Virus record (IMG/VR): IMGVR_UViG_3300045999_004574
Location: 1-37,959 of that record
DNA: 37,959 nt
Reading direction: 5' to 3' (one strand)
Source of the DNA: a virus
In this document: positions 121-13,693 of the stretch, piece by piece
Layout of the letters: each line of letters starts with the position of its first letter
Position numbering within the stretch: position 1 is the stretch's first letter
Translations under genes and position numbers: made by a program
The notes under the pieces: model-generated
Seen by the model: the letters and a program-made list of their open reading frames with translations, nothing else
Told to the model about the DNA's origin: nothing
The model's database searches: none

Positions 121-408
121 TTACATCAACATTCTCACAAGACCCACAGTGTCTATTGTGGTCAACAAAAGATAGTTGGCCAGCATGCCGAAACTTTTGC
201 GAGTCCAAGCAGCCCAAGCGTACAAACTACACCCAGCAATCCAAATAGGATACATGTACAGTAGAGGCGGATTGGGGACTGTAGCAGCCATTGCGATGCT
301 GCAACCGATACTAATAGCCCAAGCAACAAGCTCAACGCAAAAACGAGCAGGGTGACTGTGAAAATCATCACGAATCCAGATTAGAGTACTGAGAAATATA
401 TTGTTCAT
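121..408 (-). CDS. Small conserved phage membrane protein
   Basis: The product is a 95-residue protein with a charged N-terminal stretch (IRDDFHSHPARF, residues 12-23), then about three hydrophobic segments (roughly 24-44, 48-68 and 74-94) separated by a WTRKSFGML turn. I associate this pattern (DFxSHPxRF, AATxPN, YPxWI, WTRKSFGML, DTVGL) with small inner-membrane proteins of T4-like environmental phages; the function is unknown. The start overlaps the 3' end of the UV endonuclease gene by 41 nt, so the two are probably co-transcribed. A later start is possible, but the DFHSHP segment argues for keeping the N-terminus. Confidence 0.7.
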   Translation of the reverse strand: MNNIFLSTLIWIRDDFHSHPARFCVELVAWAISIGCSIAMAATVPNPPLLYMYPIWIAGCSLYAWAAWTRKSFGMLANYLLLTTIDTVGLVRMLM

Positions 409-1420
409 AAAGTTGTTGGCTGGCTATGTTCTTGCCTTTGGCTTCAACTTCGATGTCAAAGTCAGTGGTAAAGCCCAGGGCCCAATCGTTTACAGCCACG
501 TTCCAACAGAAATCACTGTGAGCGCGGAGCTTTTGTTTTTTATAACCTCTAGCAAGAAGTTCAGCAAGGTTTGGTCGAACGCTTCGATCATGCCCAACCA
601 AAAGATCTTCGCGGCTAGTAGAAAAGTGCATGCCAGGACGCACACCACGCCAAGACTCACGAACCCGCTGAACGCGATCTTCCTTGGGATCGATGTATTC
701 GCCAGTGTTGATCCAGTGGTGATGAATATCCAGCACAAGAGCGCAATGCTCAGCCACAGCCAAAGTAGTATCCAGACCATTTGATATCTCGTCGTTCTCG
801 ATAGTTATGAGGTTTCTAGCCTCGGGGCTCAATCTCTTGAGTGTGCGCAGAAACTTTTCGGGGCCGCCGCGACCCGACAAGTGAATGTTGATCATGAAAC
901 CATGATCGTGCCAGGTTTGACCATAGCCCATCCAACGAGCCATGTCTGCATGATACTCAAACTCTAGGATACTGCGCTCCACAATACCATCATTTTCACT
1001 GGCCAACACACAAAATTGTCCAGGGTGAAAGCTGAGTCGCACACCCAGGCGTCGAGCAGCATCGCCCACTGGGGCAAAGATTTTTGCACAGTGATCTTGA
1101 ATTTCCTGCCGTTGCCACCAGTCAATCCAGCTAGGTTCAGTATAGCCTTGCAGCATTTCTGATCCCAGCCGCAGCATGCGCCGTTCAGGTGGCAATGTGC
1201 CCACACGCTCCACCATCATCAAGGCAGCACGAGCATTATGGTTCATGATATCCCATTGGCGCTGTTCAGCTTCGTCTTTGTGCTCACGCAGCCAGCGCAT
1301 GGTGGTTGATCGGCCATTGATGTCACGATCCTTGGCGTTGACTTTCATACCGCCAGTTTCGCTGGGATCATTGAGCCATTTGCAACAAAAACCAATACGC
1401 GGAGTAATAGATGTAGTCAT
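368..1420 (-). CDS. uvsE: UV-damage endonuclease (UvsE/UVDE family)
   Basis: The product is a 350-residue TIM-barrel endonuclease that would nick DNA 5' of pyrimidine dimers and start alternative excision repair. Visible family features are RIGFCCKW near the N-terminus, LRLGSEM, the metal-ligand segments SFHPGQF, MINIHLSGRGG, ITIENDE, LDIHHHW and AHSDF, and a C-terminal DIEVEAKGK carrying the last Glu and conserved Lys. The length fits the family. I start at the MTTSITPR methionine rather than six codons upstream, because the TATAAT of a consensus promoter lies between the two and because the family begins near RIGF. There is no SD before this start. Position 1420 coincides with the predicted transcription start, so the mRNA may be leaderless. 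Confidence 0.93.
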   Translation of the reverse strand: MTTSITPRIGFCCKWLNDPSETGGMKVNAKDRDINGRSTTMRWLREHKDEAEQRQWDIMNHNARAALMMVERVGTLPPERRMLRLGSEMLQGYTEPSWIDWWQRQEIQDHCAKIFAPVGDAARRLGVRLSFHPGQFCVLASENDGIVERSILEFEYHADMARWMGYGQTWHDHGFMINIHLSGRGGPEKFLRTLKRLSPEARNLITIENDEISNGLDTTLAVAEHCALVLDIHHHWINTGEYIDPKEDRVQRVRESWRGVRPGMHFSTSREDLLVGHDRSVRPNLAELLARGYKKQKLRAHSDFCWNVAVNDWALGFTTDFDIEVEAKGKNIASQQLYEQYISQYSNLDS

Positions 1421-1455
1421 GCTGTAATTATACAGCATTTGTGAATATTCGTCAA
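1419..1455 (-). promoter_or_regulatory. uvsE promoter with palindrome over the -10
   Basis: On the minus strand, TTGACG (1450-1455), a 17-bp spacer and TATAAT (1427-1432) form a near-consensus sigma70 promoter. A palindrome with 8-bp arms, ATGCTGTA and TACAGCAT around a 4-bp centre (1419-1438), covers the -10 and the start codon. It contains CTG-N8-CAG. The betaproteobacterial and E. coli LexA box is CTG-N10-CAG, so this resembles an SOS operator but is 2 bp too short. The -35 overlaps the stop codon of the amidinotransferase gene. Confidence 0.7.
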
Positions 1456-5796: not shown

Positions 5797-6588
5797 ATGA
5801 GCCTAGCATTTGATTTAATTTCTGATTTACACGTTGAAACTTGGTCCGCAGATTTTGATTGGACTTATCAAGCTACCAGTCCAGTATGTATTGTTGCAGG
5901 AGACGTATGCCAAGACCGAGACGTGTTGGTTCGCACACTCAAACACCTAGGCAAGTGTTACCAAGCCGTGTTTTACATCGACGGCAACGATGAACACCAC
6001 GAACGATTGGAAGATATTGGCCATAGCTACACCGATCTAGCTCGCCGACTGCGCCGAATTCCCAATGTGGTATATCTACAAGACAATGTGGTCATAGTGG
6101 ATAATGTTGCAATTTTGGGCACCAATGGTTGGTGGGGTTTTGATTTTGATCTTGGTATTGATGCTGAACAGTCTGCGCTGTGGAGCCAAGAACGTTACAA
6201 TATCACCGGCCTGGCCACCAAGGGTATTGCTAGAATGAGCAATACTGATGCCAGTTATATGTTGAGCAGTGTCAGCAGGTTACAAACTCACAAAGATGTA
6301 AAAAAGATCGTCATGGTTACCCATACGGTACCGGACCCTGCGCTGATTGCACATGACATAGAACTTGACGGCAGCATGCAATTCAACACCATGGGCAACC
6401 GACTCATGATGCAGGCCGCTGCTGTGGACACTGAAAACAAAATACACACATGGTGTTTTGGTCACTACCATGGCAGTGTGGACCAACTGCGAGGCGGCAT
6501 TCGCTTTGTCAACAACTGCCGCGGGAGAGGCAATACACCGCATGTCAAATCAGTGTATTATCCCAAGAGAATAGTTGTGGATTTTTAA
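5797..6588 (+). CDS. Calcineurin-like metallophosphoesterase
   Basis: The 263-residue protein has the metallophosphoesterase motifs in order: Asp10-x-His12 (SDLHVE), AGDV, a GNDEHH segment in place of GNHE, VTHT and a C-terminal GHYHG. These residues bind two metal ions in phosphodiesterases and phosphatases of this fold. The protein is cytoplasmic by sequence. Its substrate (nucleic acid end, cyclic nucleotide or phosphoprotein) cannot be inferred. Its 3' end overlaps the convergent clpS gene by 4 nt. Confidence 0.85.
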   Translation: MSLAFDLISDLHVETWSADFDWTYQATSPVCIVAGDVCQDRDVLVRTLKHLGKCYQAVFYIDGNDEHHERLEDIGHSYTDLARRLRRIPNVVYLQDNVVIVDNVAILGTNGWWGFDFDLGIDAEQSALWSQERYNITGLATKGIARMSNTDASYMLSSVSRLQTHKDVKKIVMVTHTVPDPALIAHDIELDGSMQFNTMGNRLMMQAAAVDTENKIHTWCFGHYHGSVDQLRGGIRFVNNCRGRGNTPHVKSVYYPKRIVVDF

Positions 6589-6896
6589 GTCACGCTTTCA
6601 GGCTCAACTCTGATCTGCAACGGGTAGTTTTGAGCTCGTGCCAGCATGGTCACTTCAACGCCTTTTTGTTCGGCAATTTCGTAGGGCAACACTGCCACAC
6701 AAGCTGACCCTTCTTCGTGAATGTCTTTTGTGATGGTTTCAGCAGTTTCTACGTTGTAATCAAAATACTCCATCAGTGTTTCCACCACAAATTCATATGT
6801 GGTTTGATTATCATTGAGATATACAACACGGTACATGGGCGGTTCTTTTAAGTCTTCAGCAGGCTTGATTCGTGTTCTTGTATCGCTCTGTGCCAT
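6585..6896 (-). CDS. clpS: ClpS-like N-degron adaptor
   Basis: The 103-residue protein matches ClpS: PPMYRVVYLND (19-29), EFVVETLMEYF (35-45), KDIHEEG (57-63) with His60, and the C-terminal AEQKGVEVTMLARAQNYPL helix. ClpS delivers N-end-rule substrates to ClpA-type unfoldases. Asn28, Asp29 and His60 of the amino-terminus-binding pocket are kept, but the next acidic residue is Asn30 and the usual gatekeeper Met position is Tyr34, so substrate choice may differ. It lies downstream of hsp20 and in the same neighbourhood as clpX. Translation starts after an AAGGAA site. Confidence 0.9.
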   Translation of the reverse strand: MAQSDTRTRIKPAEDLKEPPMYRVVYLNDNQTTYEFVVETLMEYFDYNVETAETITKDIHEEGSACVAVLPYEIAEQKGVEVTMLARAQNYPLQIRVEPESVT

Positions 6897-6913
6897 TTCA
6901 GTTCCTTGTTGTT

Positions 6914-6944
6914 CAGTAGCGGCACTGTGCCGCTACTGTATTTA
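6914..6944 (-). promoter_or_regulatory. TAAATA box plus 11-bp-arm hairpin before clpS
   Basis: Inverted repeat CAGTAGCGGCA-CTG-TGCCGCTACTG (6914-6938) has perfect 11-bp arms and a 3-nt loop. On the minus strand it starts directly after TAAATA (6939-6944). No U-run follows on either strand, so a simple terminator is unlikely. It may be a 5' mRNA hairpin, an operator, or a processing site between hsp20 and clpS. Confidence 0.6.
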
Positions 6945-6954
6945 CGCTATTATA

Positions 6955-7413
6955 TTAGGAAGCGTAGGTGATAGCAATAGTTTTAGGCTTGGCTTCCTCA
7001 GGTACTTCACGTTTTAAGTGAATGCTGAGAATACCCAGTTCAAGGTGTGCATTGCTGATTTCCACATGATCCGCAAGTTGAAATTCTCTGCGGAAGCTTC
7101 TTTCGCTAATGCCCTTGTGCAGGTATTTTGCAGTGGCATCTTCATTGTCAACTGATTCACGACTGTGCCTGCCTTCAATGACCAATAGATTTTTGTCCTT
7201 GGTCACTGTGAGGTTGTCGTGCGCAAAACCAGCCACAGCCAAGCTGATCATGTACTCGTCGTCTGCAACTTGTACAATGTCGTAGGGTGGATAGTTTGAG
7301 CTGGATTGTTGAGCACTCACACGCATGAGCTCATCAAATACGTTATCAAAGCCGATACCAAATTTGGTGAGTGCAGGAAGGTCGAAAGAACGAAGGGTTA
7401 GAGTTTTTGTCAT
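6955..7413 (-). CDS. hsp20: Small heat-shock protein (Hsp20/IbpA type)
   Basis: The 152-residue chaperone has an alpha-crystallin domain from about YPPYDI (42) to LSIHLKREVPEE (129-140), including the hallmark YLHKGISERSFRREF stretch and the HLELGILSI signature near its end. A C-terminal IAI (I-x-I) motif for oligomer contacts is present. Such proteins hold unfolding proteins without ATP and are frequent in T4-like environmental phages. An AAAGGAG site sits 7 nt before the ATG. A TAAATA box and a strong hairpin precede it. Confidence 0.95.
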   Translation of the reverse strand: MTKTLTLRSFDLPALTKFGIGFDNVFDELMRVSAQQSSSNYPPYDIVQVADDEYMISLAVAGFAHDNLTVTKDKNLLVIEGRHSRESVDNEDATAKYLHKGISERSFRREFQLADHVEISNAHLELGILSIHLKREVPEEAKPKTIAITYAS

Positions 7414-7446
7414 TTGTTTTCTCCTTTATTAAGCAAGATGACTTGT

Positions 7447-7482
7447 AATGTAGCCCGACCATCGGCGCTACATTGTTATTTA
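7447..7482 (-). promoter_or_regulatory. TAAATA/TATAAT box and 5' hairpin before hsp20
   Basis: On the minus strand TATAAT (7482-7487) merges into TAAATA (7477-7482). Two nucleotides later a hairpin begins: AATGTAGC (7447-7454) pairs with GCTACATT (7467-7474), inside which CCGA and TCGG pair around a 3-nt loop with one bulged base. The hairpin does not contain the SD, which is about 30 nt away, so a classic RNA thermometer masking the SD is not obvious. No T-run follows. Confidence 0.6.
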
Positions 7483-7500
7483 TTATACACGAAAAGCGAA

Positions 7501-7761
7501 TTATATTTTGTTATTTAGGTCAGTTACCAGACGGTAATCTGTCCAGCTCGGGTGTTTTGGATCTGGTACCCAAGTCAGCCCAAAAAGAGTGTAGAGATCA
7601 TCTGAGTCAAAGGTTACCCGTAAAGTGTACTTGAATGGCTTGGTTCGGAATTCAACTTGGTACTTGGCGGCCCAATTATAAAGTCGATCACGAAGTGTTG
7701 CCAGGGCATAGGTCGCTGTCATGCCGCCTGCACCAGTGGGCAAGCTGAATTCTATGTACAT
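7501..7761 (-). CDS. Conserved phage protein of unknown function
   Basis: The 86-residue protein begins MYIEFSLPTGAGGMTATYAL and has a central YKYTLRVTFDSDDLYTLFGLTW stretch, predicted to be mixed alpha/beta. It has no membrane segment. Its start shares one base with the bS21 stop (TGATG), so it is the last gene of the clpX-rpsU unit and probably translationally coupled. I know it only as a recurring small phage protein. Confidence 0.7.
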   Translation of the reverse strand: MYIEFSLPTGAGGMTATYALATLRDRLYNWAAKYQVEFRTKPFKYTLRVTFDSDDLYTLFGLTWVPDPKHPSWTDYRLVTDLNNKI

Positions 7762-7985
7762 CAGTAAAGTTTTTTGGGCAACTGTTGATCTGCTAGTTTT
7801 TTACGCCAACGATTTCGAGCAGCTGATGCTTTGAGCTTGCGACGAGTCGTGGGTTTGACATAAAACTCGCGATCACGAACATCATTCAAGATTCCAGAAT
7901 CTTGAATTTTCTTTTTGAACTTGCGCAGAGCTTTTTCTACTTGTCCATCTTGCACCAGTACTGATCTACCCCTGAGTTTTTGCAT
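7761..7985 (-). CDS. rpsU: Ribosomal protein bS21, phage-encoded
   Basis: The 74-residue basic protein has the bS21 pattern: EKALRKFKKKIQDSGIL (17-33), RDREFYVKPTTRRK (37-50), then a basic AARNRWRKKL tail. bS21 sits on the 30S subunit next to the anti-SD region of 16S rRNA and helps initiation. Phage copies are thought to bias ribosomes towards phage messages. The gene overlaps the 3' end of clpX by 20 nt and the next gene by 1 nt, so all are likely on one transcript. Confidence 0.92.
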   Translation of the reverse strand: MQKLRGRSVLVQDGQVEKALRKFKKKIQDSGILNDVRDREFYVKPTTRRKLKASAARNRWRKKLADQQLPKKLY

Positions 7986-9180
7986 TTGCTTCCTTGAGTT
8001 CTCTAGGGGTATTTACCTGATCAGCATCGATGATCACCCGGTCTATGCCTTGCCGGCGATACTGTGCCAAATAGAACATGTGCGGAAGCAACACACGTTC
8101 CAGTTCACTGTGCAAACCTCTAGCACCAGTTTTGTTCAAAATAGTGCGATCAGCAATTAATTCCAATGCTTCGGGCGAAAATTCTAATTCAACTCGATCC
8201 TGACCAAACAACCATGAATACTGCTGAATATAACTGTGTTTGACATCCAGCAAAATGCGGATAAGATCCTCTTTGCCCAGTTCCCTCAGAGCTACCCAAC
8301 CAGGAAAGCGTCCAATAAACTCCGGGATCATTCCAAACTTGATCAAGTCATCTGGTGTGACTTGATCCAAACTGGTGTTGACATCAGGATTCACCTTGGC
8401 ACCAAATCCAATACTGGTACCGCGCACTCGATTTTTGACTACAGCATCAAGACCAACAAATGCCCCGCCAGCAATAAACAAAATGTTGGTGGTGTCAATT
8501 TCAATCATTTCTCCTGAAGGATGCTTGCGATTACCAGTGGGAGTGACTCTACATTTGGTACCTTCTACCAATTTAAGTAGAGCCTGCTGTACACCCTCGC
8601 CTGAAACGTCGCGTGTGATACTGGCACTTTCACTGCGTCGGCTGATCTTGTCAATCTCGTCAATGAACACAATGCCACGTTGAGTCTTGGCCACATCACC
8701 ATTGGCCGCTGCAAACAGTCGAGATATCAAACTTTCTACATCATCGCCCACATACCCTGCTTCGGTTAAACTGGTAGCATCTGCAATAACAAATGGCACG
8801 TCAAGATAGCGTGCCACGCTGCGAGCCAGCAATGTTTTTCCTGATCCAGTGGGCCCAAACATCAAAATATTGCATTTTTCAATTTCTACATTGGGATCAG
8901 GATTGGCAATGCGTTTGTAGTGATTCACCACTGCCACACTCAACATTTGCTTGGCACGATCTTGCCCAATAACATACTGGTCAAGATGTTCTTTAATTGC
9001 CTGCGGATCAAGTTCAACTGGGTCTGTTGTCTTAACAATGCTTTCATCTGTGAGCAATGTTTCGCAAAGTTCCACACACTCATTACAAATTGCCACACGT
9101 TCGCCCACAATGAGTTTGGCAACTGCATCCTTGTGTTTACCACAAAAACTACATGTGTCAATGGTGTCATTTGATTTCAT
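7966..9180 (-). CDS. clpX: ClpX-like AAA+ unfoldase
   Basis: The product is 404 residues, near the usual 420. The N-terminal zinc-binding domain has Cys10, Cys13, Cys32 and Cys35. The AAA+ core has Walker A GPTGSGKT (109-116), the pore loop GYVG (142-145), Walker B VFIDEID (171-177), the RKH loop (218-220) and sensor II in GARG (352-355). The ClpP-docking IGF tripeptide is intact at 257-259, so it could form a ClpXP-like protease with host ClpP. No clpP is in the window. It overlaps the membrane-protein gene upstream by 14 nt and rpsU downstream by 20 nt. Confidence 0.96.
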
Positions 9181-10603
9181 TGTTTGCCTTTTGTAGATGG
9201 TTTTCCAATTGTTGACGCTCGCTGTTGCTCAATAATTCAGGATCATATTCACCTGTACTTATTTTGTTCACCAGGTGTTCGATATAAGCTGAATCATAAG
9301 TGTAACTGTCGCTAAGGTTTTTGTCAACCGCAATCCAGTTTGTACCATTGTACTTGTACACGACATTGGGCACAATGTCTACTCGCACAAACGAATCGCC
9401 TTTGCTGGCTGTTTCTGGAAAGCTGGTGCCAAACCCAGTGCGATTTTCTGGTCTGGCATTGTCGGCTACCAGACGCATCCAAGGCAATTCGTTGATTTCA
9501 CCTCGTATTAATTTAGAGCGTTGATTTTTTATGGTGTCGTTGGGGTTCTCGGCCTTCCATTGTTTGATGGCTGCTTTGAGTTCCAGATCTTCAGATTCAA
9601 TTTCTTCATGATCTTCGGTTGGTGGCGTCTCATTGAATTTGACCACCATGGGAGAATGAAACATCCAACCTGGTGGATATTTAAAACCCTCTTTCAAATA
9701 AGGATGTGTGTCGGGGTGGTGTGAAGGTGGTTGTTGTGGAGGTGTCTCTGTCTTTACAATCTCGCGCAAGGTTTCAATTTGTTTTTCAGTCAGTGGACCA
9801 TCATCTGGTTTGTATCGGGGTTCGTCGTGTATAAACCCACCGGTGCCTTGTCTTGCCCATTCAAATTGTTTGTTAGCGGCCAGAATCAGTGTGAGTGCTA
9901 GAGGGTCAAATACCAGCACAATCATTATGATCACAAATCTAACAGCTTTTTCCAATACATTTTGATCAGTGCTCTCGCCATAGATCAAGGCGGCAATATA
10001 TTTGATCGGGCCTACTTCGGCTTCAACTTTTCGAAATTCTGCTGCAAGAGGAGCTCGTTCTTCGTTGAGCGTGGTAATTCTTTTTTGGCTTTCGCCAATT
10101 TCTTTGAGTAGTCGGCCACGCTCGGCTTGTTGGCCACGGCGTATTTGAACTGCCTTTTCTGCGCCTCGTTCGTCGCTGGACCGGCCCATAACTTGGTCCA
10201 CTGCTTCATCAAGTTGCTTGAGAGCCCGGCGGTTAGCATCTATGTTGTCACGTTCTGTTTTGATTTTTTCATCATAGATAGCAATCTTGGCCACAGCATC
10301 ACCTGACACCAGGCTTTGATCACTGTGCGCTTTGGATAGATATCCAAAAATGCCCATACTGGTCAGCAGCATCAAGAAGGCCACGGCTGGCACAAGATAC
10401 ACCTTGAAGGCCCAGCCAGCACGGCGCCAGTTGTTGTGCAACCACACAGTGGCTGCAATCTTTCCCAGTTCTAAACTGCCACCCATGATGATCACAGGAA
10501 TAGTTGCCGCAGAAAATATAGCAACCAGACCAGCCACAGAGTAATAGGCAGCCACTGCGCTCAATAAAAGAGCAGTGGCCAAAATAGCAAAACCAAATAT
10601 CAT
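9167..10603 (-). CDS. Large coiled-coil membrane protein
   Basis: The 478-residue protein has two N-terminal hydrophobic segments (about 2-20 and 22-42), a third at about 66-86, a long charged coiled coil (about 105-205), and a fourth hydrophobic segment (about 220-245). A proline-rich soluble part follows, then a C-terminal part with FVRVDIVPNVVYKYNGTNW and DSAYIEHLVNKI. The layout suggests an inner-membrane protein with a large cytoplasmic tail. I recall similar multi-segment proteins in T4-like marine phages, where the function is unknown. Its position just upstream of clpX in a coupled unit hints at membrane-linked early takeover, but this is speculation. Confidence 0.7.
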   Translation of the reverse strand: MIFGFAILATALLLSAVAAYYSVAGLVAIFSAATIPVIIMGGSLELGKIAATVWLHNNWRRAGWAFKVYLVPAVAFLMLLTSMGIFGYLSKAHSDQSLVSGDAVAKIAIYDEKIKTERDNIDANRRALKQLDEAVDQVMGRSSDERGAEKAVQIRRGQQAERGRLLKEIGESQKRITTLNEERAPLAAEFRKVEAEVGPIKYIAALIYGESTDQNVLEKAVRFVIIMIVLVFDPLALTLILAANKQFEWARQGTGGFIHDEPRYKPDDGPLTEKQIETLREIVKTETPPQQPPSHHPDTHPYLKEGFKYPPGWMFHSPMVVKFNETPPTEDHEEIESEDLELKAAIKQWKAENPNDTIKNQRSKLIRGEINELPWMRLVADNARPENRTGFGTSFPETASKGDSFVRVDIVPNVVYKYNGTNWIAVDKNLSDSYTYDSAYIEHLVNKISTGEYDPELLSNSERQQLENHLQKANNEIK

Positions 10604-10609
10604 AGAAAT

Positions 10610-10939
10610 TTATTTATTAGTGGCCGCTACCTGTCTAACAGCATGTTTAATGGCTACCCAAGTACCAAACTTGGGATCAGGTACCTCAAACCAAACACGC
10701 TCTGCGACCAGGCCAGATCTATAGGTTATGTTGGCACGATCAAGTCTGCGTTTGACATGACTCTGACTGCGCCAATTTTTACCAAACTGTGCTCTTGCTT
10801 CTTGCATGATAGCATACCATTGACTGGTGGTAGACAGTTCGAAAAATAATTTGTGCATGGGCAAAGGCGTTTCTTTAAGCGAGTCAAGTGATTTAAGCAT
10901 ACTCGACGTAGAGGCTTCAATGTTAACAGTCATATACAC
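10610..10939 (-). CDS. Conserved phage protein of unknown function
   Basis: The 109-residue basic protein contains HKLFFELSTTSQWYAIMQEARAQFG and a GLVAERVWFEVPDPKFGTW segment. The first or third codon may be the start. It follows a structured leader region and is 6 nt upstream of the coiled-coil membrane protein, so that leader may control it. No domain is recognised. Confidence 0.6.
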   Translation of the reverse strand: MYMTVNIEASTSSMLKSLDSLKETPLPMHKLFFELSTTSQWYAIMQEARAQFGKNWRSQSHVKRRLDRANITYRSGLVAERVWFEVPDPKFGTWVAIKHAVRQVAATNK

Positions 10940-10944
10940 AACCT

Positions 10945-11125
10945 TACTAGATAGATCCTCTCGGCATACCCCCGGGGTTCCAATCCGGGTTTTGGTCTGT
11001 TGCCAGACCGAGGTCTTTGTCGCAACCTACGGGACTTCTGTTCACATGCCACGGTGCCTGGTAGGCCTAGGTTATCGATCACCCTACCCGGCCATTGAAC
11101 AGCCCAATCTCTCTGTCCATGCACA
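10945..11125 (-). ncRNA. Structured RNA candidate (leader or ncRNA)
   Basis: This GC-rich gap between two minus-strand genes can form several stems. They are: GGTCTG-GCAA-CAGACC with a GNRA tetraloop (10994-11009); a 9-bp stem with one mismatch (11056-11065 with 11083-11092); GGACAG with CTGTTC (11097-11118); CCCGG with CCGGG near 10971-10989; and a possible long-range pairing of TGGCAT with ATGCCG that closes the tetraloop region. A TATAAT lies just upstream, so an RNA would begin next to the first stem. It matches no RNA family I can name. It may be a cis-acting leader of the 109-residue gene or a free RNA. No tRNA could be folded from it. Confidence 0.5.
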
Positions 11126-11130
11126 CAGTA

Positions 11131-11158
11131 ATTATACTACATTTTAGTCTTCTTTAAA
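11131..11158 (-). promoter_or_regulatory. Promoter before the structured RNA
   Basis: On the minus strand TATAAT (11131-11136) is 16 bp downstream of TTTAAA (11153-11158). The -10 is perfect and the -35 weak. It overlaps the 3' end of the preceding gene and would start transcription near 11124, at the edge of the first stem. Confidence 0.45.
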
Positions 11159-11634: not shown

Positions 11635-12546
11635 TTACTCCTTGGTATGTTCCAAAACAATACGGTCTAATGCTTCTCTCAAAAAGTGCTCATCGGGGTC
11701 GTAGGCTACACCTCGCCACTTGACAATTTTGAGTTCTTCGTCGGGGCTCCACTCGTTGTGCCAGTTCCGGCCGTTGAACATGGCATGATATTCGTGACCG
11801 TCCTTGGTCTTGACTTCATACTTGCCTTGGCGAACAGGCACAGTTTTGGCCGGGAACCAGTTAGTAAGTCCATAAACGATGTCATCCATGTCGCGATATC
11901 GTTCGTAGCCTTTGCCTTGGTTTGACCCTGCAATGTAGAATGCATACTCAGAACCTTTGCCGTTGGTGTCTCCACCATAGTTGTCCAGTTCTTCACCGTC
12001 GTATTCAGCACCTACAACAATTTCGTTGCTGTCAAAATCGGAAATTTGTATCAGCAGTTTTTCAGGATCAAATGGTTGTCGAAGTTCAATGTTGGCTTCA
12101 AAGAATGTGCCCTTGTCAGATGTGTATCCATAGAACACCACAGTGCCGGGATCTTTTTCGTCAATCCAAACTTCTTCTATGGTGCTGAGTTGCACATCGC
12201 AGCCGTCAAGACTGGACAGTTCACGCTCATAAACAATGTTTTCATTCTCGTCCAGAATCTGCAGATGTCCGGCACTCATATCCACGCCATTCACATGTCC
12301 CATGTCATCGCAATCAAACCACGACCCGGGCGCAAAAGGTTGCATGTCTTCGGGCACTTCCCCATCATATCCACCCCAGGCATAGTCCGGCACACTTAGA
12401 CGATGTTCCTTAAAATAATCGTAGACCTTGCGATCCACGGTGCCCATGACATGCTCGCCACCATAGCCCCACAATTGAATCTTGTAGGTGCGCGGTGTGA
12501 ATTTGAGTACTTGTAGCAGTTTTTCCTGCTCTTCGGTGGTAGACAT
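11635..12546 (-). CDS. Acidic conserved phage protein
   Basis: The 303-residue acidic protein contains YKIQLWGYGGEHVMGTVDRKVYDYF near its N-terminus and a beta-rich remainder with many Asp/Glu (for example WIDEKDPGTVVFYGYTSDKG). I do not recognise a domain. It lies between the Bax-inhibitor-like gene (1-nt TGATG overlap) and a second acidic gene, suggesting one operon. Confidence 0.65.
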   Translation of the reverse strand: MSTTEEQEKLLQVLKFTPRTYKIQLWGYGGEHVMGTVDRKVYDYFKEHRLSVPDYAWGGYDGEVPEDMQPFAPGSWFDCDDMGHVNGVDMSAGHLQILDENENIVYERELSSLDGCDVQLSTIEEVWIDEKDPGTVVFYGYTSDKGTFFEANIELRQPFDPEKLLIQISDFDSNEIVVGAEYDGEELDNYGGDTNGKGSEYAFYIAGSNQGKGYERYRDMDDIVYGLTNWFPAKTVPVRQGKYEVKTKDGHEYHAMFNGRNWHNEWSPDEELKIVKWRGVAYDPDEHFLREALDRIVLEHTKE

Positions 12547-13238
12547 CAGTCGTCCTTTTTAAGTCCAAACAGCTGGAGCAGATTAATGAACAGGTTAATA
12601 AAGTCTAAATACAATGCGAGTGCTCCAGACACTTCGTCGGCCGCAGTGGCATTTCCATTTGACACCATCTCGCGGATTCTCTGTGTGTCGTAGGCTGTGA
12701 GTGCCAAAAACACAATGATTGCAATTGCAGAGATCACCATTTGCATCACCGTAGAGCCGATAAAGATGTTGATGATGCTGGCAATGATGATTGCAATCAA
12801 GGCCACAAAAGCATAACGACCCACTGAGTCAAGACTTTGCTTGGTAAAGTATCCATATCCCGACATGGTACCAAACAAAACAGCCGCGCCCATGAAGGCT
12901 GTGACGATTGATCCCATTTTAAAAACTACAAAGATTGTGGCAAAACTCAAGCCCATAAGGGCCGCAAAACCATGTAGGCAAAGTTGCGCAACACTTTTGC
13001 TGGGATTGTTGCCCAGCACCATGGTGACCGCAAACACTGCCACCAAGGGTGCAAAGATAACCACCCATTTCATGAATCCGGTAAAGAAAAACTGTACCAG
13101 TTCTGGACTCATGCCCACAAACATAGACACCAGCATGCTGGTGATCACAGCCAGCATCATGTGTCCATACACACGACCCATGGCTTGATTTACGCCCGCG
13201 GCGTCTCTATAACTGTCAATAGTTGATGCGTACATCAT
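12546..13238 (-). CDS. Bax inhibitor-1 / YccA-family membrane protein
   Basis: The product is 230 residues from the MMYASTID start, chosen because AAGGAG lies 5 nt before it and because it gives an ATGA overlap with the upstream gene. About seven hydrophobic segments follow a short soluble N-terminus. The family's signature is near the end: ALTAYDTQRIREM, then GALALYLDFINLFINLL. Bacterial members include YccA, an FtsH-interacting protein, and YbhL, and act in membrane quality control or ion leakage. A phage copy might protect against or tune host FtsH or membrane stress during infection; that role is an inference. Confidence 0.9.
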   Translation of the reverse strand: MMYASTIDSYRDAAGVNQAMGRVYGHMMLAVITSMLVSMFVGMSPELVQFFFTGFMKWVVIFAPLVAVFAVTMVLGNNPSKSVAQLCLHGFAALMGLSFATIFVVFKMGSIVTAFMGAAVLFGTMSGYGYFTKQSLDSVGRYAFVALIAIIIASIINIFIGSTVMQMVISAIAIIVFLALTAYDTQRIREMVSNGNATAADEVSGALALYLDFINLFINLLQLFGLKKDD

Positions 13239-13693
13239 TCTTTCTCCTTTTTGGTTAATTCGCATACCAACAAAAATTGTTCGTATGCGTGTCTCACACT
13301 CTCGTGTTTCATTAATTTATCTGCTTCTGCGTGTAATGCCGTCAATCCTGCTTGAGCAATGTCGTAAACACAAGCAATTTGTAGAGTAGCCAATTCACTA
13401 CCAAACTCTTTTGCTAACTTTTCCCAGGCTTTCTTTTGTCCCGGAGTAATAGCAGTTCTTTGTGGTCGCAGTTCACTGGCTTCGCGTATGGCTTTGCACA
13501 TGGCATCTTCGGCCACACGGCCGGCCGCAATCAGCGCGGCATGGTTAGGTTCCACGTTAAACCTACGGGATGAACCCCCGGGGTAGCACATGACCAAGTG
13601 ATTACCTTTAGGGAAACTGTCCAAAAGATCACTGTCATACTCAGCCACAGGATGATACCGACGTCCAATTTTTTCATAGAATATCTTTTTCAT
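13235..13693 (-). CDS. Conserved phage protein of unknown function
   Basis: The 152-residue product starts MKKIFYEKIGRRYHPVAEYDSDLLDSF from an ATG that overlaps the upstream stop (ATGA). Longer in-frame starts would run into that gene and are rejected. The C-terminal half is helical with a C-terminal basic end (LTKKEKE). I associate the FYEKIGRRYxPVAEYDSDL, FPKGxHLV and AGRxAEDAM pattern with a widespread phage family of unknown function. ATGA overlaps on both sides show translational coupling to the BI-1 gene. Confidence 0.75.
   Translation of the reverse strand: MKKIFYEKIGRRYHPVAEYDSDLLDSFPKGNHLVMCYPGGSSRRFNVEPNHAALIAAGRVAEDAMCKAIREASELRPQRTAITPGQKKAWEKLAKEFGSELATLQIACVYDIAQAGLTALHAEADKLMKHESVRHAYEQFLLVCELTKKEKE

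Follow-up and report, generated by a model that had tools for sequence, protein, structure and literature searches.

The window analyzed here is a 38-kb virus record (37,959 nucleotides in full), and the genes around the element described below all lie on the minus strand. The phage is T4-like, judging by its gene content: the window carries ribonucleotide reductase genes (including that for the small subunit), HSP20, ClpX, DNA ligase, and a DUF6267 protein whose relatives are found mostly in T4-like cyanophages. Along the minus strand, an upstream gene (11632-11144) is followed by a TATAAT, a leader, an AAGG, an ATG, and a run of three genes: F0 (10610-10933, ATG at 10933-10931), encoding a basic protein of 107 amino acids; F1 (9167-10603), encoding a protein of 478 amino acids with a hydrophobic N terminus; and ClpX (7966-9180), assigned by Pfam and synteny. 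Where flanks are long enough, most loci have F0 followed by F1, several of them with ClpX next, and this constancy leaves the idea of a mobile cassette unsupported. Downstream of F0-F1, the stretch from 6585 to 9180 (minus strand) encodes ClpX, HSP20, and ClpS (Pfam), a phage-borne chaperone/protease-adaptor set. Elsewhere, 12546-13265 and 368-1438 (minus strand) encode a membrane protein of the Bax1-I family and a UV endonuclease of the UvdE type. ARAGORN finds no tRNA or tmRNA in the window.

An initial annotation had singled out positions 10945-11125 as a strongly folded intergenic RNA. Several of its observations are apparent on reading the sequence, including an intergenic stretch of about 200 bp, a hairpin whose 6-bp stem carries a GCAA loop (11009-11004 with 10999-10994, loop 11003-11000, minus strand), further stems that read 5' to 3' on the minus strand (i.e., the strand of the flanking genes), and a TATAAT just ahead of the first stem (11136-11131, minus strand). 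What did not survive is the strong folding of the stretch by itself: the region 10900-11150 folds no better than its shuffles on either strand (z of -0.23 and -0.36), and a thermodynamic scan of this region (z of about -0.3) is uninformative as evidence. The decisive evidence for the RNA is covariation, not energy.

Homologues were collected from virus contigs, the proteins encoded on either side serving as queries (80 and 34 loci), and the leader proved alignable across relatives of the downstream gene, F0. In an alignment built with a covariance model of 37 pairs and covering about 85 to 87 relatives, both sides change in 28 of the 37 pairs, with 464 doubly changed cells versus 130 in shuffled controls and a covariation score of 0.404 versus 0.177 when shuffled and at most 0.134 when the 3' partners are slid by 1 to 3 positions. 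Because this alignment was fitted to the structure, later tests were made on plain MAFFT alignments. The proposal of a structured RNA that is preceded by a promoter and contains a hairpin with a GNRA cap is thus borne out by comparison of homologues, with compensatory changes in its stems set against shuffled and slid controls, and the possibility of no covarying stems is excluded. The RNA does occupy the proposed stretch but is longer than proposed and lies on the minus strand; as defined by covariation, the whole domain begins near the transcription start, ends with the 3' strand of helix P1 (10855-11124, minus strand), and comprises the leader plus the first 28 codons of F0.

Within the leader (all features on the minus strand and, except for the ribosome-binding site, supported by covariation), the 5' strands of P2 (11105-11103) and P3 (11102-11097), together 11097-11105, pair with 11033-11031 and 11043-11038, respectively, the 3' strands together spanning 11031-11043. 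These enclose P4 (AUGG at 11095-11092 with CCGU at 11054-11051) and the apical hairpin P5 (GGUAGG at 11088-11083 with CCUACC at 11065-11060), both within 11051-11095. A second domain, P9/P6 (10947-11019), holds the GNRA hairpin P7 (11009-10994) and the hairpin P8 (10989-10985 with 10975-10971). The ribosome-binding site, AAGG at 10942-10945, recognized from the sequence and conserved as A(A)AGG, lies in the junction between P9 and P11. The P7 loop is usually GNRA (GCAA, GAAA, GUGA, or GCGA), and some members have UUCG in its place, so this loop is probably merely a stable cap rather than a docking loop. We also considered a pseudoknot between the 5' GCAU and the invariant GUAUGC downstream of P8. 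This pairing never varies, and it is rejected since in a distant clade the corresponding 5' GCAG covaries with CUGC in the open reading frame (ORF) and not with GUAAGC. An alternative pairing of leader AGAG with ORF CUCU is likewise not kept in all clades. Invariant unpaired bases are many, including AGGNUG, CAAAAC, and GUAUGCC.

The fold does not end at the start codon. When leader and ORF were screened for bases that covary with each other, four helices emerged, which were tested on a MAFFT alignment of 67 sequences. The first, P1, is a 12-bp helix between the very 5' end of the RNA (GCAUGGACAGAG, 11111-11122, minus strand) and CUUUGCCCAUGC in the F0 ORF at about codons 24 to 28 (10855-10866, minus strand; 11111-11122 pairs with 10866-10855), with double changes in 7 of 12 pairs and 96.9% of cells paired in the 67 sequences. 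The second, P10, joins GCGA within the conserved AGGNUGNGAC motif of the leader (11020-11023, minus strand) to UCGC at codons 18 and 19 (10879-10882, minus strand), leader GCGA or GAGA being matched by ORF UCGC or UCUC; all cells are paired (100%), and three of the four pairs show double changes. The other two are hairpins within the ORF, both on the minus strand: P11 (GUUAA at 10927-10923 with UUGAC at 10887-10883; 99.4% of cells paired) and P12 (AAGC at 10917-10914 with GCUU at 10898-10895; 97.0% of cells paired, with double changes in four of four pairs). Together, P1, P10, P11, and P12 leave 97.9% of cells paired across the 67 sequences, with 203 doubly changed cells versus 73.5 in shuffled controls and a score of 0.408 versus at most 0.131 when slid. 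Since these helices were chosen from overlapping data, the shuffles alone are insufficient, and the slid controls and the distant clade described below are the stronger tests. RNAalifold recovers all four helices unprompted, and when P1 is included, the segment 10850-11124 (minus strand) reaches a minimum free energy of -94 kcal/mol (z of -2.75; 2 of 200 shuffles as good). The long-range closing helix that the initial annotation had suspected therefore exists, with its 3' strand (10866-10855) outside the region proposed and inside the F0 gene. The element is accordingly not an intergenic RNA but the 5' end of an mRNA, taking in ribosome-binding site, start codon, and first 28 F0 codons, and it is not separate from F0 in sequence because P1, P10, P11, and P12 use ORF bases; a processed, separate RNA species may exist.

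Could the pairing of the 5' end simply protect the message? A stability element that guards against 5'-end-dependent decay, with translation left unregulated, would fit P1, which in nearly all members pairs the bases at the extreme 5' end of the transcript. A simple hairpin would be enough for this purpose, however, and a 270-nt fold with invariant loops and ORF pairings far exceeds the need; we regard this explanation as improbable.

Might the stretch instead be expressed only as part of a conserved coding frame? For the leader, this is excluded: the leaders are 180 to 199 nt long, with lengths falling in all three residues modulo 3 (68 leader sequences), and the frame of the ORF at 10930-11124 (minus strand) is not kept among these homologues. 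The 3' part of the element does double as coding sequence. Here, third positions are nearly invariant at many of codons 2 to 28, while the rest of F0 varies freely; the near-frozen codons are Ser2 TCT, Ala7 GCC, Ser8 TCT, Ala9 GCG, Leu19 CTT, Thr23 ACG, and His28 CAC (alignment numbering). The F0 family proteins are about 105 amino acids long and basic in 58 of 58 sequences (pI of 8.1 to 10.5, median of 9.9; net charge of +1 to +10). AlphaFold2 gives low confidence to about the first 20 residues of the window F0 (block means of 41 to 51) and predicts a ferredoxin-like core from about residue 26, such that the RNA domain encodes the predicted disordered N terminus. Most simply, this N terminus would be a by-product of the RNA; it appears to exist since the RNA needs those bases. 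F0 lacks both a Pfam match and a solved relative, and its PHROG matches are weak and of unassigned function. No RNA-binding domain was recognized (best Foldseek E values of 0.09 and 0.26), and the best VIA-align Z score of 6.9 falls on a common fold; the predicted arrangement is ferredoxin-like, with no clear relative.

How tightly is the RNA tied to F0? A degenerate DNA pattern made from the leader alone matched 116 stretches. Among the loci collected, 68 distinct leader sequences matched this pattern, each directly followed by an F0 homologue; the other matches were due to chance, lacking promoter or F0, or were cut by a contig end. Conversely, the RNA ends at the start codon in 79 of the 80 best F0-profile loci, the remaining one being truncated by a contig end, and most loci retrieved by the upstream gene alone are without the RNA. 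No true member without F0 was found among the leader-pattern stretches and F0-profile loci. Such strict linkage to one gene is a property expected of an autogenous operator, as is the position of the ribosome-binding site and AUG inside the closed domain, given that an operator domain includes or abuts that site. Comparative sequence analysis thus shows the structure of the RNA, its boundaries, its overlap with the ORF, and its strict F0 linkage.

The initial annotation could name no RNA class, and this also stands. Our covariance model R1 matches 10931-11124 (minus strand) with 179 bits, whereas Rfam 15 has no match in the window at gathering score (including the manA, wcaG, alpha-operon, and S15 operator models and riboswitches), and when 25 relatives were searched by E value, all matches stayed below threshold, at chance level. 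GenBank phages gave no match for the RNA or F0, and none of 11 candidate stretches in bacterial genomes was an F0 relative. The cultured phages Mosig and XacN1 carry F1 relatives, but other genes precede F1 there. Judged from these searches and the openly available literature, the RNA is a new family, absent from Rfam and occurring among uncultured T4-like phages only. Structured mRNA elements that act in cis are a known kind; a 5' end that closes onto codons 24 to 28 is unusual.

These data bear on two further explanations. One is a riboswitch, in which an aptamer would bind a small molecule or ion that infection produces or uses up, and binding would open or close the start site. Aptamers are typically large closed domains in which, as here, many unpaired bases are invariant, and T4-like cyanophages have riboswitch-like leaders, manA and wcaG (PMC2864571). 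Yet the RNA is linked to one gene family only, without a recognized metabolic role, no Rfam riboswitch is matched, and the enclosure of 28 codons would be unusual for an aptamer; we therefore consider a riboswitch unlikely. The other is a dual-function RNA, whose 5' domain would also act in trans as a stable RNA, alone or as a particle with F0, on targets such as host ribosomes or RNA polymerase. That the domain is self-contained and closed from the transcription start, that promoters are strong in the relatives, and that F0 is basic would all suit such a role. Against it, there is no gap between leader and gene, P9 ending beside the ribosome-binding site and the fold entering the ORF, and no member was found without F0, so that this proposal, too, seems doubtful.

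The -10 box, TATAAT at 11131-11136 (minus strand, from sequence), would place the transcription start about 7 nt farther on, where the element's first base pairs lie. TTGACA-N16/17-TATAAT is present in most relatives; the window itself has a poor -35. The position of the element at the 5' end of a strongly promoted operon transcript would also suit an antitermination RNA that binds RNA polymerase, of the kind represented by the HK022 phage put RNAs. The put RNAs known to date are short, and this explanation leaves the pairing with codons 24 to 28 and the frozen codons without a reason; we think it very improbable. A related locus, L005, shares 92% identity with the window as far as precisely 11131, the last base of TATAAT, after which both the RNA and the gene differ: past the -10 box, its RNA scores 49.9 bits versus 179 for the window, and its F0 is 45% identical. 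Since L005 shares the promoter and then diverges in both RNA and F0, RNA and gene travel together. That these near-identical phages part ways exactly after the -10 box (at about 3502 in L005 and 11131 in the window) suggests that recombination at the promoter has swapped RNA and F0 together.

F0 profiles extend to proteins that share about 40 to 50% identity with the window F0. Their leader is longer and usually starts with GCAGUG, and the window-type model matches the RNA in three such loci, L311, L338, and L313 (E values of 2e-8 to 1e-4). In this distant clade (20 sequences), P10 is paired in 100% of cells through U-A, C-G, and A-U alternatives that follow the third base of the codon preceding CUU, and P1 is kept despite base changes (GCAGU/ACUGC, GUAGUG/CACUAC, and GUAGC/GCUAC). 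The four helices tested are paired in 97.2% of cells there versus about 42% or less when slid, with P11 kept in most members, and in the intermediates L005 and L045, P1 is a perfect 14-bp helix of differing sequence. The AUG of the distant clade lies about 30 nt farther downstream in the same fold (i.e., the RNA is kept and the start codon has moved). The resemblance of its GGAGACCU to a B12 box is superficial and without an Rfam match. In the leaders and early ORFs of L311 to L338 (e.g., about 1470-1500 in L338), a near-palindromic GGAGAUCUCU is conserved before the AUG, and further loops of this RNA repeat a short motif, ACCNCU. In seven relatives (L329, L336, L337, L339, L341, L348, and L388), the RNA is absent and F0 starts near window residue 26. 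RNA-less relatives (match start 1501) have a -10-like box about 5 to 6 nt ahead of the start codon, a spacing from which the -10 would appear to be placed for a leaderless mRNA. Because some relatives keep F0 without the RNA, the main job of F0 is independent of it.

In total, these observations lead us to favor, on balance, a cis-acting mRNA control element that heads the phage operon F0-F1-ClpX, with F0 as its likeliest effector. In this model, the RNA emerging from the start site about 7 nt past TATAAT would fold into a closed domain of about 270 nt, its 5' end zipped to F0 codons 24 to 28 and the ribosome-binding site and AUG seated in the inner junction between P9 and P11. To initiate, a 30S subunit would have to disturb P9, P11, P12, and P10, and elongating ribosomes would have to unzip P1; thus, the fold could set the translation of F0 and, via coupling, that of the operon. 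Since the fold closes around the start and the first 28 codons, it probably controls operon translation, a reading also favored by the location of both AUG and ribosome-binding site within a junction of the closed domain. That the RNA is strictly linked to a single gene, whose product is basic, speaks for autogenous control, and we posit that F0 would bind the fold and repress its own synthesis. Translation control, its sign, and F0 as ligand are all what we infer from this arrangement; the ligand could instead be another operon product or a host factor. The other explanations, in order of decreasing probability, are riboswitch, dual-function RNA, stability element, and antitermination RNA. 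With low probability, we also speculate that the 270-nt RNA, possibly as a particle with F0, is a phage RNA machine that acts on ribosomes or a host factor and whose 3' part happens to be read as codons; if so, the RNA-bearing and the leaderless relatives would represent two solutions to starting translation in the infected cell. Under the cis-acting reading that we favor, the element is a testable candidate for the post-transcriptional control of a phage operon that includes the ClpX chaperone. In either case, a large RNA family with strong comparative evidence is added to those in Rfam, one with the unusual property that the fold closes over the start codon and dictates codon choice for 28 codons, and a caution follows: conserved N termini of phage proteins can be RNA in disguise.

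S4 is an example of autogenous translational control by a ribosomal protein, and by analogy with S4, S15, gp32, and gp43, F0 may control its own message. As in the S4 alpha-operon (RF00140) and S15 rpsO (RF00114) operators, a structured mRNA domain contains the ribosome-binding site and start region and sits directly on the gene that it would regulate; unlike them, the domain here measures about 270 nt and reaches codon 28, with no sequence or model match to either. The autogenous translational operators of T4 gp32 and gp43 (PMC3014915) share with our RNA the setting of T4-type phages and a location in the gene's own leader. Their repressor is a nucleic-acid-binding gene product, whereas F0 is only proposed as one, and their operators consist of one small pseudoknot or hairpin about 40 to 70 nt upstream of the start (PMC3014915), in contrast to a large, closed, multibranched domain that includes the ORF start. 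The manA and wcaG motifs are likewise structured leaders from T4-like phage metagenome sequence, known from T4-like cyanophages and with functions unproven (PMC2864571), but they are linked to sugar, nucleotide, or photosynthesis genes and not to F0, and their Rfam models do not match. Finally, the Downstream-peptide/yfr6 motif (PMC2864571) is a structured 5' RNA that, like ours, precedes a short ORF with no assigned function; no model match was found here either, and what sets our RNA apart from it is pairing that reaches into the coding sequence.
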